From an uncultured Clostridia bacterium (lineage in GTDB: Bacteria; Bacillota; Clostridia; Christensenellales; Borkfalkiaceae), in the NCBI GenBank assembly GCA_930990665.1, contig CAKNQN010000001.1, positions 62,001 to 126,000 of the forward strand: 64,000 nt of DNA. The letters run 5' to 3'. The translations under genes and the position numbers were made by a program. The notes beneath the pieces are model-generated. The model made no database searches and was not told the origin of the DNA. It saw nothing but the letters and a program-made list of their open reading frames with translations. This document shows positions 6,112 to 50,992 of this stretch, piece after piece. The stretch's first letter is position 1. Each line of letters begins with the position of its first letter.

Positions 6112-6957
6112 TCAGTTTTTGTGTTGGAGAGCGAGCTTGGCGGCGAGACGGATCGGGAGTGTGGCGACGAATTTATGTTTTTCCAAAGAGTGCAAAAAAT
6201 GCAGCGGGGCACGCTCATATGCCGCGACGCGCAGTGCCATGTTGAGCGATTTTACATTTTCGTCGAAGGCGCACAGCTCGTCGCGCGTACCGTGCAAAGC
6301 GACGTACGCATAGGCAGAAACGAGTCCTGCGGCCACTTTATCAAATAAAAACTTGTAAGCAGGCGCGGTAAGTTGTGTTTTGACCGCGTTAAAGGCGTCC
6401 GTCGCGTCGATGGCATCTTGGCGAGGGTCTCGCGTATTTTTCGTAGCGGGGCGAGGGGTGGATTGAAATTTTCCGGATGAAAGAAGTGCAACGTCATCGC
6501 ATAGTGCAAGTGCGAAAGCGGAAATATATTCGCGTGGAAGGTGCATTTCGGAAAGCAAGAAAGTGCCGATTTTAGCGGAGAGAAAAAAGCCGAATTTCTC
6601 CGGACGGCAGAGCGCATCGCGTCCTGCGGGGGATTGAGGAAGGGTGACTTGTTTTTCGCAGAAGAGGACGAGCGCGGCTGACTGTTCGGATGCGACTTCA
6701 AAAAGATGTTTGGGTTCTTCCGCGGGGAAATAGGGCCCGCAAAAAAAGAAGTAGCGGCCTGTGGGAATGCCGTCTTCGCCGATAAAATGCAGGTTGGGAT
6801 CGGCGCCTGGTTCGGGCGAGAGAAGAATCTCGCAACCCGCCGGCAGGTCGCCCGCGGGAAAACTTCCGCGATAGGGAAAAACAGACAGGGGCGCTTGCGG
6901 CGCCTGCTCACCTTGCGCAGATGGAACAGTTTTCTTTTTTCGGAAAAATAATTTCAT
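6112..6957 (-). CDS. Hypothetical protein, 281 residues
   Basis: Not recognised. ATG 6957 follows AAAAAGGTACTTTC on the minus strand; an earlier in-frame ATG at 6981 has no ribosome site. The N-terminus is basic (MKLFFRKKK) then Pro/Ala/Gln-rich, and there is no signal peptide or clear membrane span. The middle has a hydrophobic GRYFFFCGPYF segment and a charged linker rich in Thr and Asp (residues ~180-200); the C-terminal third is Ala-rich and probably helical. It stands alone between two strong transcription boundaries: the terminator at 6023-6053 and the repeat array at 7066. No function is assigned. Confidence 0.55.
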   Translation of the reverse strand: MKLFFRKKKTVPSAQGEQAPQAPLSVFPYRGSFPAGDLPAGCEILLSPEPGADPNLHFIGEDGIPTGRYFFFCGPYFPAEEPKHLFEVASEQSAALVLFCEKQVTLPQSPAGRDALCRPEKFGFFLSAKIGTFLLSEMHLPREYISAFALALCDDVALLSSGKFQSTPRPATKNTRDPRQDAIDATDAFNAVKTQLTAPAYKFLFDKVAAGLVSAYAYVALHGTRDELCAFDENVKSLNMALRVAAYERAPLHFLHSLEKHKFVATLPIRLAAKLALQHKN

Positions 6958-11373: not shown

Positions 11374-12198
11374 ATGAAGATCATGATTGCCGGACTCGGC
11401 CTGATCGGCGGGTCGATGGCAAAGTCGCTCAAACGTGCCGGCTATGCCGTGGCGGGTTCAGACCGTCCGTCTGTGGAAGAGGCGGCGCTGAAGGCGGGTG
11501 CGATCGATGCGATCGCGCGCGACACGGCGGCGTACGACGTCGTCTTTGTGGCGCTGCCGCCGGACGCGGCCATGCAGTTTATCGGCGCGTCCGCATTCCG
11601 GGAGGGCGCGATCGTCGCGGACATCTGCGGCGTGAAAGGGGTTCTCGAAAAGTTTGTCTATTCCGCGCCGCGAGTCTTTCGCTATGTGGGCTGTCATCCG
11701 ATGGCGGGCAAAGAGGTTTCCGGCTTTGAAAATTCTGATGCCTCGCTGTTTGACGGCGCGAGCATGATCGTGACTTTGTGCGAAAAAACCGATCCTGCGG
11801 CCCTTTCGCAGCTGAAAGAGCTGTTCGGGCAGATGGGGTTCGGTCTCGTGCGCGAGTGTACGGCCGCCTATCACGATGAAAAGATCGCCTACACTTCGCA
11901 GCTGGCGCATATCGTGAGCAACGCCTATGTGAAGAGCGGCACGGCGAACGGATTTCCCGGCTTTACGGGCGGGAGCTTTCAGGACATGACGCGCATTGCC
12001 GGCGTGGATGAGGAGGTCTGGACGCGGCTGTATATGCTCAATCTGCCCGCCGTGACGGCGGAGCTGGAGACGCTGATCGGGCATCTTTCCGAATATCTTG
12101 CCGCGCTGCAGGGCGGGGACGAACAGGCTCTGAAAGAGCTTTTGCGGCAGGGGCGCCTTCGGAAAGCGGAGCTGGACCGCGAAAAAAAGATCCTTTGA
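11374..12198 (+). CDS. tyrA: Prephenate dehydrogenase
   Basis: A 274-residue protein that converts prephenate to 4-hydroxyphenylpyruvate for tyrosine synthesis. The Rossmann motif GLGLIGGS begins at residue 7, GCHPMAGKEVSG carries the conserved His/Lys active-site region, and FTGGSFQDMTRIA lies in the helical C-terminal domain. No ACT regulatory domain follows, so feedback control by tyrosine may be absent or act elsewhere. AGGAG precedes ATG 11374. It leads the region that later contains the whole aroC-aroK run, though several unrelated genes lie between. Confidence 0.92.
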   Translation: MKIMIAGLGLIGGSMAKSLKRAGYAVAGSDRPSVEEAALKAGAIDAIARDTAAYDVVFVALPPDAAMQFIGASAFREGAIVADICGVKGVLEKFVYSAPRVFRYVGCHPMAGKEVSGFENSDASLFDGASMIVTLCEKTDPAALSQLKELFGQMGFGLVRECTAAYHDEKIAYTSQLAHIVSNAYVKSGTANGFPGFTGGSFQDMTRIAGVDEEVWTRLYMLNLPAVTAELETLIGHLSEYLAALQGGDEQALKELLRQGRLRKAELDREKKIL

Positions 12199-12271: not shown

Positions 12272-12342
12272 AGAGAAAGCCTTCGGCGGGCGATATACTG
12301 AACTGTCTGCGGCGGGAGCATACGAATTTGTCGGGAAAGGAA

Positions 12343-12825
12343 ATGTGTACGGCGGAGATAAAACTGATTTCCTGCGGCGGGGAAGCTGCAGAGGGCGCCG
12401 CTGCGGAGGAATTTGCCGCAGAGGAGATCGCCGTGCGCGGCCGCATGCGGGAAGAAGAGGACTGTGTCACCTTCTTTTTCCGCACGGACGAGGCGGCGTT
12501 TTGCCTGACGTTCGGCAGGGGCGTGCGCATCGTCCGCACGGGCAGTGTCGCCTATACGCTGCAGCTGGAGCCGGGAGGGACTTGCGCCGCGTGCATTCGC
12601 ACCCCTTACGGGGAGATCGCCGCGGAGGCGCGCGTTGCGGAGCAGTTTCTGGAACGCACGCCGGAGAGGCTGGATTACAGGTGTTCCTATGAACTCGGTT
12701 TCGGCGGGGGCGAAGGGCTCCGCCGCGAGATCATATTTACCGCGCGTTTCGGGAAGGACGGGGGCGCGGAGAGGAACCGCGGCGCTTCGGGTAGCCGGGG
12801 CGGGCGAAAAGGAGGAAGGGCATGA
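12343..12825 (+). CDS. DUF1934-family beta-barrel protein
   Basis: About 160 residues. The pattern of the DUF1934 (YwiB-like) calycin-type barrel is recognisable: RIVRTGSVAYTLQLEPGG, then RTPYGEIAAEARV, then a DYRCSYELGF strand. The family has no established activity. Start choice is unclear: ATG 12343 gives the usual short N-terminus, but TTG 12328 has the better-placed ribosome site (GGGAG at 12314-12318). The C-terminal tail (residues ~140-160) is Gly/Arg-rich and probably disordered. Its 3' end overlaps the next start codon by four bases, so the two are translationally coupled. Confidence 0.7.
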   Translation: MCTAEIKLISCGGEAAEGAAAEEFAAEEIAVRGRMREEEDCVTFFFRTDEAAFCLTFGRGVRIVRTGSVAYTLQLEPGGTCAACIRTPYGEIAAEARVAEQFLERTPERLDYRCSYELGFGGGEGLRREIIFTARFGKDGGAERNRGASGSRGGRKGGRA

Positions 12826-13493
12826 AGTTGCTGTATTTGGGGCATTCCTGTTTTCTGCTGCGGGCGGAAAACGGTACGCGCATCGTCATCGATCCGTTTA
12901 CGGGCATCGGATATGAAATGCCGCGCGTGGCGGCCGACTTTACGGTCTGCACGCACGGTCACTATGACCACGCTTACACGGCGGGCGTAGACTGTCCGCG
13001 TCCGGCGGTGACCGGAGCGGGGGAATACGCGCTCGGCGGCGTGAGAGCGGAGGGCGTGCCGAGCTATCATGACGAGGTGCACGGCGCCAAACGCGGCAAA
13101 AATACCGTGTTTCTGTTCGAGGCGGACGGCGCGCGCGTGTGCCATATGGGGGATATCGGCCAGCCCTGCACGGAAGAATTTGTGAAGAGATTGGGCAAGG
13201 TCGACGTGCTGCTGCTGCCCGTAGGGGGAACTTATACGGTGGATGCGAAGGGGGCGATGGAATATGTGCGAGCGCTTTCGCCCAAAATAACCGTGCCGAT
13301 GCACTACGCGCAGGGCGGAAACATCGATATTGCCCCGCCGGACGCCTTTCTGGCGCTGGCGGAAAAGGAAGGATACCGCTGTTCTTCCTGCGAGGAACTG
13401 GACACAAGGGAAGCGTCTGCCTGCAAGGGCGGAGAAGTGAGGATCATGGAGAGGTACGATGGAAAACGAACAGAAGATTCCGGCCGGTTATGA
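12822..13493 (+). CDS. Metallo-beta-lactamase-fold hydrolase (UPF0173/YtkL-like)
   Basis: A 223-residue protein with the metal motif THGHYDHA (HxHxDH) near residue 44-51, further ligands in SYHDEVHG and CHMGDIGQ, and MHYAQGG near residue 165. The order matches the short UPF0173-type MBL proteins, predicted metal-dependent hydrolases of unknown substrate. No membrane segment or signal. It overlaps DUF1934 by four bases (ATGA) and its 3' end overlaps the Rho-like gene by 35 bases, so the three probably share one transcript. Confidence 0.85.
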   Translation: MKLLYLGHSCFLLRAENGTRIVIDPFTGIGYEMPRVAADFTVCTHGHYDHAYTAGVDCPRPAVTGAGEYALGGVRAEGVPSYHDEVHGAKRGKNTVFLFEADGARVCHMGDIGQPCTEEFVKRLGKVDVLLLPVGGTYTVDAKGAMEYVRALSPKITVPMHYAQGGNIDIAPPDAFLALAEKEGYRCSSCEELDTREASACKGGEVRIMERYDGKRTEDSGRL

Positions 13494-14835
13494 GGAGGCG
13501 TACAATTTTCTGAATGCCAAGAGCATTCACGAAATGCGCCAGCTTGCGCGGGCATTCGGCGTGAGCAAACCCAGCCTCGACAAAAAGCACGATCTGATCG
13601 TGCGGGTGATCGGCCTGGCTTCCGGAGCGCTCAAGCCGGACCCGAAGAGCAACAAGGGAGCCAAAGTGAAGGGGGAGGACGCCTCGGCGGAGAGCGTCGA
13701 GAAGGTGCGTGAGGTGGTCTTGCAGTGCAAATCGCGCATTCCGTACGAGCGCGTGGACATCAAGCCGAAGCAATACGAATTCAACGACAGCGGCGTGGGG
13801 ACGGGCGTCGGCAAGATGTATGCGGGCCTGCTCGAATTTGACGAGCGCGGCGGCGGGCGGTTGCGCGGCACGGGCTGTGAAGCGAGCGGGAACGATGCCT
13901 ACCTGTCGGAAAGCATCATCCGCAGGTATTATCTGCGCGAGGGGGATCGGGTGACCTGCCTTGCGGAGGAGCGGGACGGGATCCCGCAGGCGATGCAGGT
14001 GACCGAAGTGGAGGGCTATGCGCCCATCTACGCCGAGCGCAAAAAATTCGGCGAACTTCCCGCCGCCTATCCCAATGAGCAGATCGTCTTTGCGAAAGAG
14101 GATTCTCCGGTATATTTCGCGCTGGATGCGCTCTGTCCGATCGGCTACGGCCAGCGCGTTCTCGCGGTGGCGCCGCGCGAAACGGGCATCACTTCGTTTT
14201 TGAATGCGGCGGCGGATGCGGCGCGCAGGAGCGGGGCAAAACCGCTGTTCGTGCTGCTCGGCCAGCGTCCGGAAGAGATCTCGGAGACACGGAAAAATTT
14301 CCCCGACTGCTGTGTGGCGGCGACGGGATTTGATGAGCCTGCCATGCGCGGGGCGTACATGGCAAAACTGGCGCTTCGCCGCGCCGAACGGTTTGCCGAG
14401 CGGGGTGAGCGAGCGGTGCTGCTTCTCGATTCTCTCGCGGCGCTGTTGCGGGCATACGAGGAGGCGTCGGCGGTTGCGGACGGAAAGGAACGCCGCGAAC
14501 GCGCCCTGCTGTTTGTCAAGCAGTTCTTTGCGGCGGCGCGGCGGCTGGAGGGCGCGGGTTCCTTGACCATCATCGCCGCGGCAGGCGCGCTGGACGCGTT
14601 GCAGACGGGAGAGTTTTCCGCCGCGGCCAACGCGGTCCTCACTTTTTCGGAATCGCTCGCCGCACGCGGGGTGTATCCGGCTATCGACCTCGTGCGGTCG
14701 CATTCCAAACGTCCGCAGAGCTTTCCCGGCTACGATGCCGCGGCGGCGGCTTCGGCGCGGCAGGCGCTTGCCGGCGCGGAAGATGCGGGTGAGTTTCTCT
14801 CCCGATTCATGCGGCAGAAAGAGTCGGAAAGGTAA
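13459..14835 (+). CDS. Rho-like protein with degenerate ATPase site
   Basis: 458 residues laid out like transcription terminator Rho: a Rho-N SAP-type helix pair (residues 14-52, SIHEMRQLARAFGV), a cold-shock RNA-binding region (~100-185, ending in LREGDRV), and the RecA-like ATPase core (from PIGYGQRVLAVAP, 227). Conserved Rho landmarks remain: RPEEISE (270-276), GFDEPA (290-295), LLLDSLAALLRAY (321-333), GSLTIIA (367-373), PAID (407-410). The catalytic elements are lost: the Walker A is APRETGIT (238-245) with Ile for the Lys of GKT, the Asp-Glu before RPEE is Gly-Gln, the Q-loop LTGG segment is replaced, and the FKGTGN R-loop reads FSAAAN. It therefore probably binds RNA or true Rho without translocating. 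Start ATG 13459 follows GGAGAGG. Confidence 0.85.
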   Translation: MENEQKIPAGYEEAYNFLNAKSIHEMRQLARAFGVSKPSLDKKHDLIVRVIGLASGALKPDPKSNKGAKVKGEDASAESVEKVREVVLQCKSRIPYERVDIKPKQYEFNDSGVGTGVGKMYAGLLEFDERGGGRLRGTGCEASGNDAYLSESIIRRYYLREGDRVTCLAEERDGIPQAMQVTEVEGYAPIYAERKKFGELPAAYPNEQIVFAKEDSPVYFALDALCPIGYGQRVLAVAPRETGITSFLNAAADAARRSGAKPLFVLLGQRPEEISETRKNFPDCCVAATGFDEPAMRGAYMAKLALRRAERFAERGERAVLLLDSLAALLRAYEEASAVADGKERRERALLFVKQFFAAARRLEGAGSLTIIAAAGALDALQTGEFSAAANAVLTFSESLAARGVYPAIDLVRSHSKRPQSFPGYDAAAAASARQALAGAEDAGEFLSRFMRQKESER

Positions 14836-14919: not shown

Positions 14920-15864
14920 ATGAAGTATTATGCGGGGATCGATTTCGGCGGAATGAGCGCGAAGGCGGGCATTTTTGACGAAAACGGGAAACTTGTGGCA
15001 AAGGACAGCGTGAAGACCTCCAAGGAAGAGGGGTATGCGGTCACGGTCGCCAAGATGGCGCAGCTGGTGCGCGATCTGGCGGCGTCGGCGAAGGTGAAGG
15101 TGAGTGCGGTGGGCATCGGTTCGCCGGGCGTCATCGACGGCAAGGAAGGCGTAGTGGTGCATTGGAGCAACTATGCCTGGGAGGACAGGCCGCTCGCCAA
15201 GGACCTGTCCGAAAAACTTTCCCTGCCCGTCAGCCTCACCAACGACGCCAACGCGGCGGCGCTCGGCGAGGCGAAATTCGGCGCAGGGAAAAACTATGAG
15301 GACAGCATCTTTATCACCCTCGGCACGGGGGTAGGCAGCGGCATTATCCTCGGCGGCAAGGTGTTTGAAGGTTCGCACGGTGCCGGCGCGGAGGCGGGCC
15401 ACATGGTCATCGAGGTCGGGGGGATTCCCTGCACCTGCGGCCGCCGCGGGTGTTTTGAGCAGTATGCTTCCGCCTCGGCGCTGGTGCGCGACACCAAGCG
15501 GGCCATGTTCGAGCACAAGGACAGCCTGCTGTGGGAGCTGACCGGCGGGGATCCAGAAAAGGTGGACGGGAAAACGGCTTTTGCGGCGGCCCGCGAAAAA
15601 GACGCCGCCGCCACGCAGGTCGTCAAGAATTATATCATGTATCTGGGGGAGGGGGTGCTCAATCTCGTCAGCATCTTCCGCCCGGAGGCGGTCATCATCG
15701 GGGGCGGCGTTTCCAACGAGGGCGAAGCGCTCCTGCAGCCGCTGCGCAAATACGTGAGCGAGCGGCTGTACGTCGACTGCGAACGTGTTCCGCTCGCCAT
15801 CCGCCGTGCGGCGCTGGGCAGCGATGCGGGCATGTACGGTGCGTGCGCGCTCGTGCTCGGCTGA
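14920..15864 (+). CDS. ROK-family glucokinase
   Basis: A 314-residue sugar kinase. N-terminal phosphate-binding loop GIDFGGMSAK (the usual Thr is Met), catalytic Asp in TNDANAAALGE, ATP-binding LGTGVGSGII, and the zinc motif CTCGRRGCFEQYAS that defines ROK proteins, preceded by the GHM motif. It most likely phosphorylates glucose to glucose-6-phosphate in the cytoplasm; a few ROK kinases use other hexoses. ATG 14920 follows ACAGGAGAAGAAG; upstream in-frame starts have no ribosome site. The gene lies 84 bases after the Rho-like gene. Confidence 0.9.
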   Translation: MKYYAGIDFGGMSAKAGIFDENGKLVAKDSVKTSKEEGYAVTVAKMAQLVRDLAASAKVKVSAVGIGSPGVIDGKEGVVVHWSNYAWEDRPLAKDLSEKLSLPVSLTNDANAAALGEAKFGAGKNYEDSIFITLGTGVGSGIILGGKVFEGSHGAGAEAGHMVIEVGGIPCTCGRRGCFEQYASASALVRDTKRAMFEHKDSLLWELTGGDPEKVDGKTAFAAAREKDAAATQVVKNYIMYLGEGVLNLVSIFRPEAVIIGGGVSNEGEALLQPLRKYVSERLYVDCERVPLAIRRAALGSDAGMYGACALVLG

Positions 15865-50526: not shown

Positions 50527-50752
50527 ACAAACAACGGCGGGATATCTGCCTGCATAAGAAAGCATATGGTCTGCGGTGTTCGGAGTTCGAATTATCTTAA
50601 TCCACAATATTTTAACGGGAGCGCTTGTAAGTCCGTGCCGATAGGCAAGGTCTGTTTATGAACGGAAAGTCTGATGCGGCACAGCGGCGTACCCACCTGC
50701 GAGAAGCGGGTTAACACTTTTTCGTTCTGCGGCACATGCGGATCTTTTTTTA
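50527..50752 (+). ncRNA. ssrS: Putative 6S RNA
   Basis: A ~226-base non-coding transcript is predicted between the promoter at 50492-50520 and a T8 run at 50744-50751. The closing helix CUGCGGUG (50571-50578) pairs with CACAUGCGG (50733-50741) with one bulged base. It is followed 5' by UUCG and preceded 3' by UUCUGCGG, the arrangement seen around the central bubble of E. coli 6S RNA. An inner AGUCCGUGCCGAUA segment resembles the E. coli stem beginning AGUCC...GAGCCGAUA, and GUGCCG pairs with CGGCAC. A UACCCACC...GCGGGUU hairpin lies on the 3' side. 6S RNA sequesters sigma-A polymerase. The family assignment is by eye and needs a covariance model. Confidence 0.6.
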
Positions 50753-50917: not shown

Positions 50918-50992
50918 GGCCTCATGGTCAAGCGGTTAAGACGTCGCCCTCTCACGGCGAAAACCGGGGTTCGAGTCCCCGTGGGGCTACCA
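50918..50992 (+). tRNA. tRNA-Glu (anticodon CTC)
   Basis: Cloverleaf of 75 bases including an encoded CCA. Acceptor GGCCTCA pairs with TGGGGCT (G1-U72 and a second wobble); anticodon stem TCGCC/GGCGA with loop CTCTCAC; T-arm CGGGG-TTCGAGT-CCCCG. The CTC anticodon reads the GAG codon. Followed within 30 bases by a terminator. Confidence 0.93.

Follow-up and report, generated by a model that had tools for sequence, protein, structure and literature searches.

Rho is a ring-shaped motor that ends transcription in most bacteria. Its ATPase is commonly seen as its purpose, and bacteria are divided into those that have Rho and those that have lost it. A 64,000-nucleotide stretch from the genome of an uncultured Clostridia bacterium (contig CAKNQN010000001.1, positions 62,001 to 126,000; the window) carries a rho gene that makes a further question testable, namely whether there is a selected Rho function that needs no ATP. 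Our analysis speaks somewhat in favor of a loss of the Rho motor in at least eight genera of one family of uncultured Clostridia, with the non-catalytic Rho kept by selection as the sole copy for an N-terminal or scaffold function. For the window gene, we hold it evenly balanced whether the cell's own rho was converted in place to a motorless Rho and retained as a static binding protein or scaffold.

Motor residues and copy number of the window Rho

The original prediction of a full-length Rho homologue was borne out by an open frame of 458 amino acids, by Pfam matches to ATP-synt_ab (66.4 bits) and Rho_RNA_bind (37.2 bits), each over its cut-off, and by alignment with 10 canonical Rhos from the same genus, on which the residue calls are based. 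Pfam Rho_N reached 16.5 bits against a cut-off of 24.9; the domain was clear when aligned with the canonical relatives. The predicted monomer structure has the OB-fold and RecA-like core arranged as in Rho. The ATG start codon is preceded by GGAGAGG at a distance of four nucleotides, and the first part of the gene overlaps the final 35 nucleotides of a metallo-beta-lactamase (MBL)-fold gene. Three NCBIfam Rho models gave 160.5-176.8 bits against cut-offs of 315-628, i.e., TIGR00767 (160.5 bits, cut-off 509), NF006886 (176.8 bits, cut-off 315), and NF041509, termed paralog_Rho2 (175.5 bits, cut-off 628). The cut-off of TIGR00767 is strict here, since the canonical Rhos of the genus (457-500 bits) miss it too. 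No match to PHROGs, searched for a phage origin, was found at E 0.01.

The ATPase site is predicted to be dead, as had been proposed. The Walker A Lys is changed to Ile244, the Asp-Glu preceding RPEE reads Gly268-Gln269, and the catalytic arginines are replaced by Gly404 and Lys417, positions that we take to correspond to R353 and R366 of E. coli Rho. The claim that the Q-loop and R-loop are rewritten was confirmed: the match to GKxLSGG is lost and the canonical TGSRMDDV is reduced to a short stretch. The RNA-contact motif GYGFLR reads GGGRLR, and the aromatics of the primary RNA site are lost. The window Rho fails all features of an active ATPase (Walker A Lys, catalytic Glu, arginine finger) as well as those of RNA handling (primary-site aromatics, Q-loop, R-loop). 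Among the hydrolysis and RNA-threading elements checked in the window's own genome (G000 in the comparison set), the Walker B Asp, the P-loop Thr, and Arg270 stay, and the others are lost or altered. From the established biochemistry of Rho, the combined lack of the P-loop Lys, the catalytic Glu, the arginine fingers, and the channel loops is expected to abolish both ATP hydrolysis and the pulling of RNA.

The assembly (1.50 Mb in 28 contigs, 74% complete) contained no further rho-like match. Among 40 genomes of the genus, 10 had one canonical Rho, 27 had a degenerate Rho like that of the window, three had neither and none had both. The three (G026, G031, and G038) gave matches at the level of ATP synthase or of an N-terminal fragment only, or none; they may represent assembly gaps, since the upstream MBL gene was likewise not found there. 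In G031 the downstream run of ROK, patatin, MBL2, aroC, and aroB is present, and the available stretch stops within ROK, before the rho position. One genome (G005; L066, L067) held two degenerate Rhos, one of them nearly identical to that of G012, which is probably contamination. The original prediction held that absence of a second Rho together with a restored P-loop in close relatives would point to a sequencing error. A second Rho is indeed absent; the P-loop, however, stays unrestored: the nearest relatives (G018 and G033) carry Val and Met at the Walker A Lys position and the same Gln, and an error is therefore excluded.

Order of residue loss and constraint on the remaining protein

Residues were counted in 26 degenerate rows of the genus comparison (the 27 genomes minus G036, whose gene is split between contig ends). 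No row had the catalytic Glu (Gln in 12) or an Arg at the R353-equivalent position (Gly in 22), and a single row was basic at the R-loop position, whereas the Walker A Lys was present in 15 and the Walker B Asp in all 26. Seven had a full-length Q-loop with the terminal GG, none with GKxLSGG. By these counts the common ancestor of the clade had probably already lost the Glu, the Arg, and the R-loop base, and the loss of Walker A probably followed. As we read the Rho tree, this later loss would fall on five branches, one of them leading to G000, G018, and G033 (Ile, Val, Met). There may have been parallel losses instead of a single basal loss.

Across 81 degenerate rows of the family, the Walker A motif was kept in 43 and the Glu in 8, with Gln as its commonest replacement (29 rows); a Q-loop ending in GG or CG was found in 26 and a gap-free R-loop in 29. 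Two genomes (G107 and G199) retain both Walker A and the Glu, and to judge from these motifs may be at an early stage or still active. With His accepted at the first position, the pair of primary-site aromatics was complete in 30 of 30 canonical but only 11 of 84 degenerate rows, the latter including partial and duplicate rows; the numbering of E. coli R66, D78, and Y80 is that of PMC9908020. The binding of rut-like RNA suggested for the window protein is thus doubtful, as these aromatics are lost in it and in most degenerate members.

The degenerate gene is not a pseudogene, and its frames are under purifying selection, as the original prediction had it. The pooled dN/dS (NG86), a rough measure because synonymous sites are near saturation in many pairs, was 0.21 for 14 degenerate pairs and 0.11 for eight canonical pairs. 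Single degenerate pairs ranged from 0.09 to 0.31; G007-G008 and G007-G029 reached 0.34-0.43 when the upstream run-in was included. Neutral simulation for six pairs, each run over half their synonymous distance, left 0 to 1.1% of the copies open. The frequent frameshifts in relatives that would have indicated decay were not seen: apart from the split G036, none of the 28 degenerate genus rows had a frameshift or stop.

The constraint has moved toward the N-terminal domain. Mean conservation of the modal residue in the core fell from 0.91 in canonical to 0.54-0.60 in degenerate Rhos, and in the Rho_N part from 0.81 to 0.72, which makes this the best-conserved part of the degenerate clade (N-terminal domain and linker 0.72 and 0.67; two core parts 0.60 and 0.54). 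Three residues (Cys90, Val70, and Ile51) are fixed throughout the degenerate clade and vary among the canonical relatives.

Canonical and degenerate genomes alike were found to encode small separate proteins that resemble the degenerate Rho's N-terminal domain (L254:5788-6201 in G023, L255:5952-6419 in G027, L256, L257, L258, L259, L260, L261, and L262). All four that were scanned matched Pfam Rho_N, two of them over the cut-off. The one in G023 lies directly 5' of a PemK/MazF-type toxin gene (6375-6731), the usual antitoxin position, while that in G027 sits between two other genes, presumably dnaJ-like and prmA-like.

The rho locus within and beyond the genus

The window gene is, judged by gene order and neighbor phylogeny, the orthologue at the ancestral locus, descended from a canonical rho and altered in place, and not an extra copy. 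The window's own neighbors were counted in 10 canonical and 28 degenerate genus rows, some of which end at contig ends. The MBL gene was directly upstream in 10 of 10 canonical and 23 of 28 degenerate rows; in the other five degenerate rows it was present and overlapped by a rho frame that is open further upstream (558-907 codons in G007, G008, G022, G029, and G004; L069, L070, L084, L090, and L065). All 10 canonical rows also had ROK directly downstream, prephenate dehydrogenase on the same strand and, by Pfam name, patatin, chorismate synthase, and dehydroquinate synthase, found in 24, 21, 20, 25, and 24 of the 28 degenerate rows, respectively. In the 76 rows from outside the genus, 49 of the 56 degenerate and 12 of the 20 canonical ones had the MBL gene next to rho, and the canonical rho of g6, g7, and g14 had no MBL gene upstream. 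Of all 20 rows without MBL adjacency, three outside the genus have an overlapping frame (G040, G136, and G137).

Both states were found within eight genera (g1, g2, g4, g8, g9, g10, g13, and g16), each with at least one canonical and at least one degenerate locus next to an MBL gene. A tree of the MBL neighbor, which uses no Rho residue, was built from 100 of 113 loci; the protein is short and support modest. All 37 genus rows grouped together (support 94), with the 27 degenerate rows forming one subclade (93) next to the 10 canonical rows, and canonical and degenerate members paired within g9 (98) and g13 (95). The tree requires at least 10 changes of the canonical/degenerate label, with 21 of 97 inner branches starred and g2, g3, g8, g10, and g16 not forming single groups. 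The Rho tree (111 rows) joined many degenerate rows across genera with four label changes, and its long branches are flagged. Horizontal transfer of a degenerate Rho was considered and is not favored, because both states share the locus within genera and the MBL tree groups g1, g9, and g13 by genus; the cross-genus joining in the Rho tree was set aside for its long branches.

Among 201 genomes of the family, 104 had a canonical and 82 a degenerate Rho, 13 had none (several of these being incomplete) and two had fragments only. The scores were bimodal: leaving out the two fragments, none fell between 1e-90 and 1e-105. The motif check covered 73 of the 82 degenerate genomes, and G177 was classed as degenerate from a separate match. 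We infer at least eight independent losses of the motor in this one family, since regaining so many residues is unlikely and the locus is common to both states. The losses were counted by the supplied genus labels because of the long branches of the Rho tree, the 10 changes on the MBL tree serving as support only, and for g4, g9, g10, and g13 the loss is deduced from a single degenerate genome per genus.

Of the suspect cases examined in the rest of the order, those of four f4/g21 genomes and of one f28 genome were degenerate, and two of f29 (G240 and G301) look degenerate. Cut-off genes in G390, G362, and G233 had canonical motifs in the visible part; four further cases (G472, G308, G326, and G218) are fragments and were not tabulated. 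In small, near-complete genomes of f28 (0.8-1.3 Mb) and f32 Rho was absent or gave weak matches, and these families may largely lack it; G300 of f28 has the degenerate Rho, and G243 of f32 a match of 3.6e-21 spanning positions 132-416 of the degenerate-Rho profile.

Best matches in a further 397 phylum genomes (completeness at least 95%) left the range between 1e-22 and 1e-95 empty, and in this sample Rho was either kept or apparently absent. A hidden degenerate Rho was sought with the degenerate profile in the 65 genomes with matches at 1e-12 to 1e-22, though not in the approximately 45 with weaker or no matches, and was rejected: the profile matched the core only (positions 189 onward of 453). 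Three of the 65 that were examined closer had active-looking ATPases, which we take to be of the FliI type.

Function of the degenerate Rho and alternative explanations

A Rho changed in this way would hydrolyse no ATP and translocate no RNA, and classical Rho-dependent termination would therefore be gone. The working surface would chiefly be the N-terminal domain and basic linker, with the RecA-like part as a ring or structural base, so that the protein may act as a static binder or scaffold; RNA polymerase or nucleic acid as its partner would be a guess. We favor a role of the N-terminal domain because the conservation shows that this domain and the fold are still needed. Published structures have the N-terminal side of Rho able to contact RNA polymerase (PMC9908020), and for a Thermus Rho-polymerase mode the authors thought relevance to termination unlikely.

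Several results weigh against a retained static binder. The dN/dS of the N-terminal domain is 0.14 in both degenerate and canonical pairs and, being no lower than in canonical Rho, therefore shows retention and not a new role. In the core it rises threefold (0.22 vs. 0.067), next to 0.19 vs. 0.096 in the OB fold and 0.35 vs. 0.15 at the C-terminus. In G191 of g8 (L263:985-2942) the interval between the MBL-fold gene and obg (assigned by Pfam) cleanly lacks the rho that other g8 genomes have there; this is apparently a completed loss and the end point of the series. Coding-strand purine bias is reported to relax in Rho-less Bacilli (PMC13323073). Comparing canonical with degenerate genomes, we found no difference at the rho locus and no clear one for strand-balanced bias in stretches up to 20 kb (0.525 vs. 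0.517, p 0.15); purine at the first codon position differed (0.647 vs. 0.623, p 0.02). The genomes in this test (canonical, seven; degenerate, 11) each had 5 kb or more on the weaker strand, and genes were called with a home-made codon-usage finder; the power is low because canonical genus members show little synonymous purine preference. Intrinsic terminators were not enriched in degenerate genomes but fewer (139/448 gene ends vs. 95/232; per genome p 0.014). Together the purine and terminator results weigh mildly against a simple loss of termination compensated by intrinsic terminators.

In the regions sampled from G027 and G014, the strand asymmetry of purines at four-fold sites was strong, at 0.144 and 0.093, compared to at most 0.051 in the sampled canonical genomes. 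This suggests that replication-linked skew dominates there.

The main rival, which we consider rather unlikely, is slow decay under residual constraint: Rho would be dispensable, its sites drifting and the gene on its way out, with the constraint reflecting avoidance of toxic misfolding or a recent relaxation. The graded erosion (first the Glu and the R-loop, then in some of the clade also Walker A, and the RNA site), the 13 family genomes without rho and the clean deletion in G191 fit such a course, and the raised core dN/dS together with the eroded primary RNA site is compatible with it. However, the gene is intact and full-length in at least 26 sampled species of a single degenerate clade of the genus, neutral copies stay open too rarely per lineage, the 14 pairs have low dN/dS, and residues such as Cys90 are fixed clade-wide.

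Compared to decay, we find it less probable that the change from Glu to Gln gave a ring that binds ATP without hydrolysis and stays closed on RNA or RNA polymerase, the window's lineage later becoming ATP-free. Gln as the commonest replacement and the Walker A motif kept in 43 of 81 family rows agree with such a clamp, but the Walker A Lys is gone in the window's genome and its two nearest relatives, and only a minority of the family rows keep the Q-loop or a gap-free R-loop. Marginally less probable again is a Rho that still terminates, by a changed chemistry at the nucleotide or by inactivating RNA polymerase without use of the motor, the latter reportedly proposed for canonical Rho. The lack of a rise in intrinsic terminators and of a clear loss of purine bias counts for it; these genomic tests are weak, however, and nearly all elements checked are lost or changed in the window Rho. 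Competition with a normal Rho or poisoning of its hexamers, as put forward in the original prediction, has nothing beyond the dead site itself in its favor and is very improbable and already contradicted, since none of the 27 degenerate genus genomes has a normal Rho. An assembly or sequencing artefact, for which only the incomplete and fragmented assembly speaks, is scarcely credible given 27 genus genomes in the same state, conserved synteny, and changes common to the nearest relatives.

A selected motorless Rho would differ from the systems known to us in the following ways. Canonical Rho (TIGR00767/NF006886) has the Glu, the Walker A Lys, both arginines, the two loops, and the aromatics in which the window Rho deviates. 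The paralog_Rho2 family, to which the window Rho is alike in its Rho-like score, is a short form of Rho named a paralogue, extra to a normal Rho, whereas the window Rho is the sole copy at the ancestral locus. Loss of rho is known in Bacillota, and the Rho-less Bacilli of PMC13323073 likewise lack Rho activity, but there the gene is absent while the window lineage keeps an intact, putatively motorless gene. Pseudoenzymes such as the iRhoms (PMC3149277) likewise have a fold that survives loss of catalytic residues, but the iRhoms are additional members alongside active enzymes, whereas in the window lineage the sole copy is altered. The open-licence literature searched gave no account of a bacterial Rho that is degenerate or motorless. 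A selected, sole-copy Rho orthologue that fails the activity-defining features would thus be new.

Here a whole radiation appears to retain the Rho protein without its motor, which, if true, would be a natural and recurrent split of the motor from a second, non-motor function. The genomes form a natural series (canonical Rho; Glu lost, P-loop present; P-loop lost; no gene), and sister species lie on either side, so that transcriptomes could be compared in the presence and absence of Rho action. A domain-based annotation alone would label the degenerate genes as Rho and predict a Rho-dependent termination that is probably absent.

Features of the rho locus (window positions; aa, amino acids of the window Rho)
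Feature	Position	Strand	Remark
Prephenate dehydrogenase gene	11374..12198	+	Upstream in the conserved block; same strand in 31/38 genus rows
DUF1934-like gene	12328..12825	+	Sub-threshold, 18.4 bits (cut-off 22.5)
MBL-fold gene	12822..13493	+	Directly 5' of rho; PF13483, 4.8e-48; neighbors canonical and degenerate rho alike
Degenerate single-copy rho orthologue	13459..14835	+	No internal stop
Rho_N-like N-terminal domain and basic linker	13480..13698	+	aa 8-80; LARAFGV...KKHDLI...SNKGAKVK
Cys90	13726..13728	+	Invariant in 26/26 degenerate genus rows, varies in canonical Rho
OB-fold, primary RNA-binding domain	13804..14022	+	aa 116-188; GYGFLR changed to GGGRLR
Former Walker A, APRETGIT	14170..14193	+	aa 238-245; Lys to Ile244
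GQRPEE instead of DERPEE	14260..14277	+	aa 268-273; catalytic Glu to Gln269
Walker B Asp324	14428..14430	+	Retained, 26/26 degenerate genus rows
Gly404 at catalytic Arg position	14668..14670	+	Gly in 22/26 degenerate genus rows, Arg in 0
Lys417 at arginine-finger position	14707..14709	+	Lys in 15/26 degenerate genus rows, Arg in 8
ROK-family gene	14920..15864	+	3' of rho; adjacent in 34/38 genus rows

With respect to the proposed MBL and DUF1934 neighbors, the MBL position was found conserved, while that of the DUF1934 gene was less clear: the window protein had a same-strand match (E 1e-10) in two of 10 canonical and nine of 28 degenerate genus rows (11/38). Further along the window, a 6S RNA (58.9 bits) was found at 50565-50748, followed by a tRNA-Glu(ctc) at 50918-50992.
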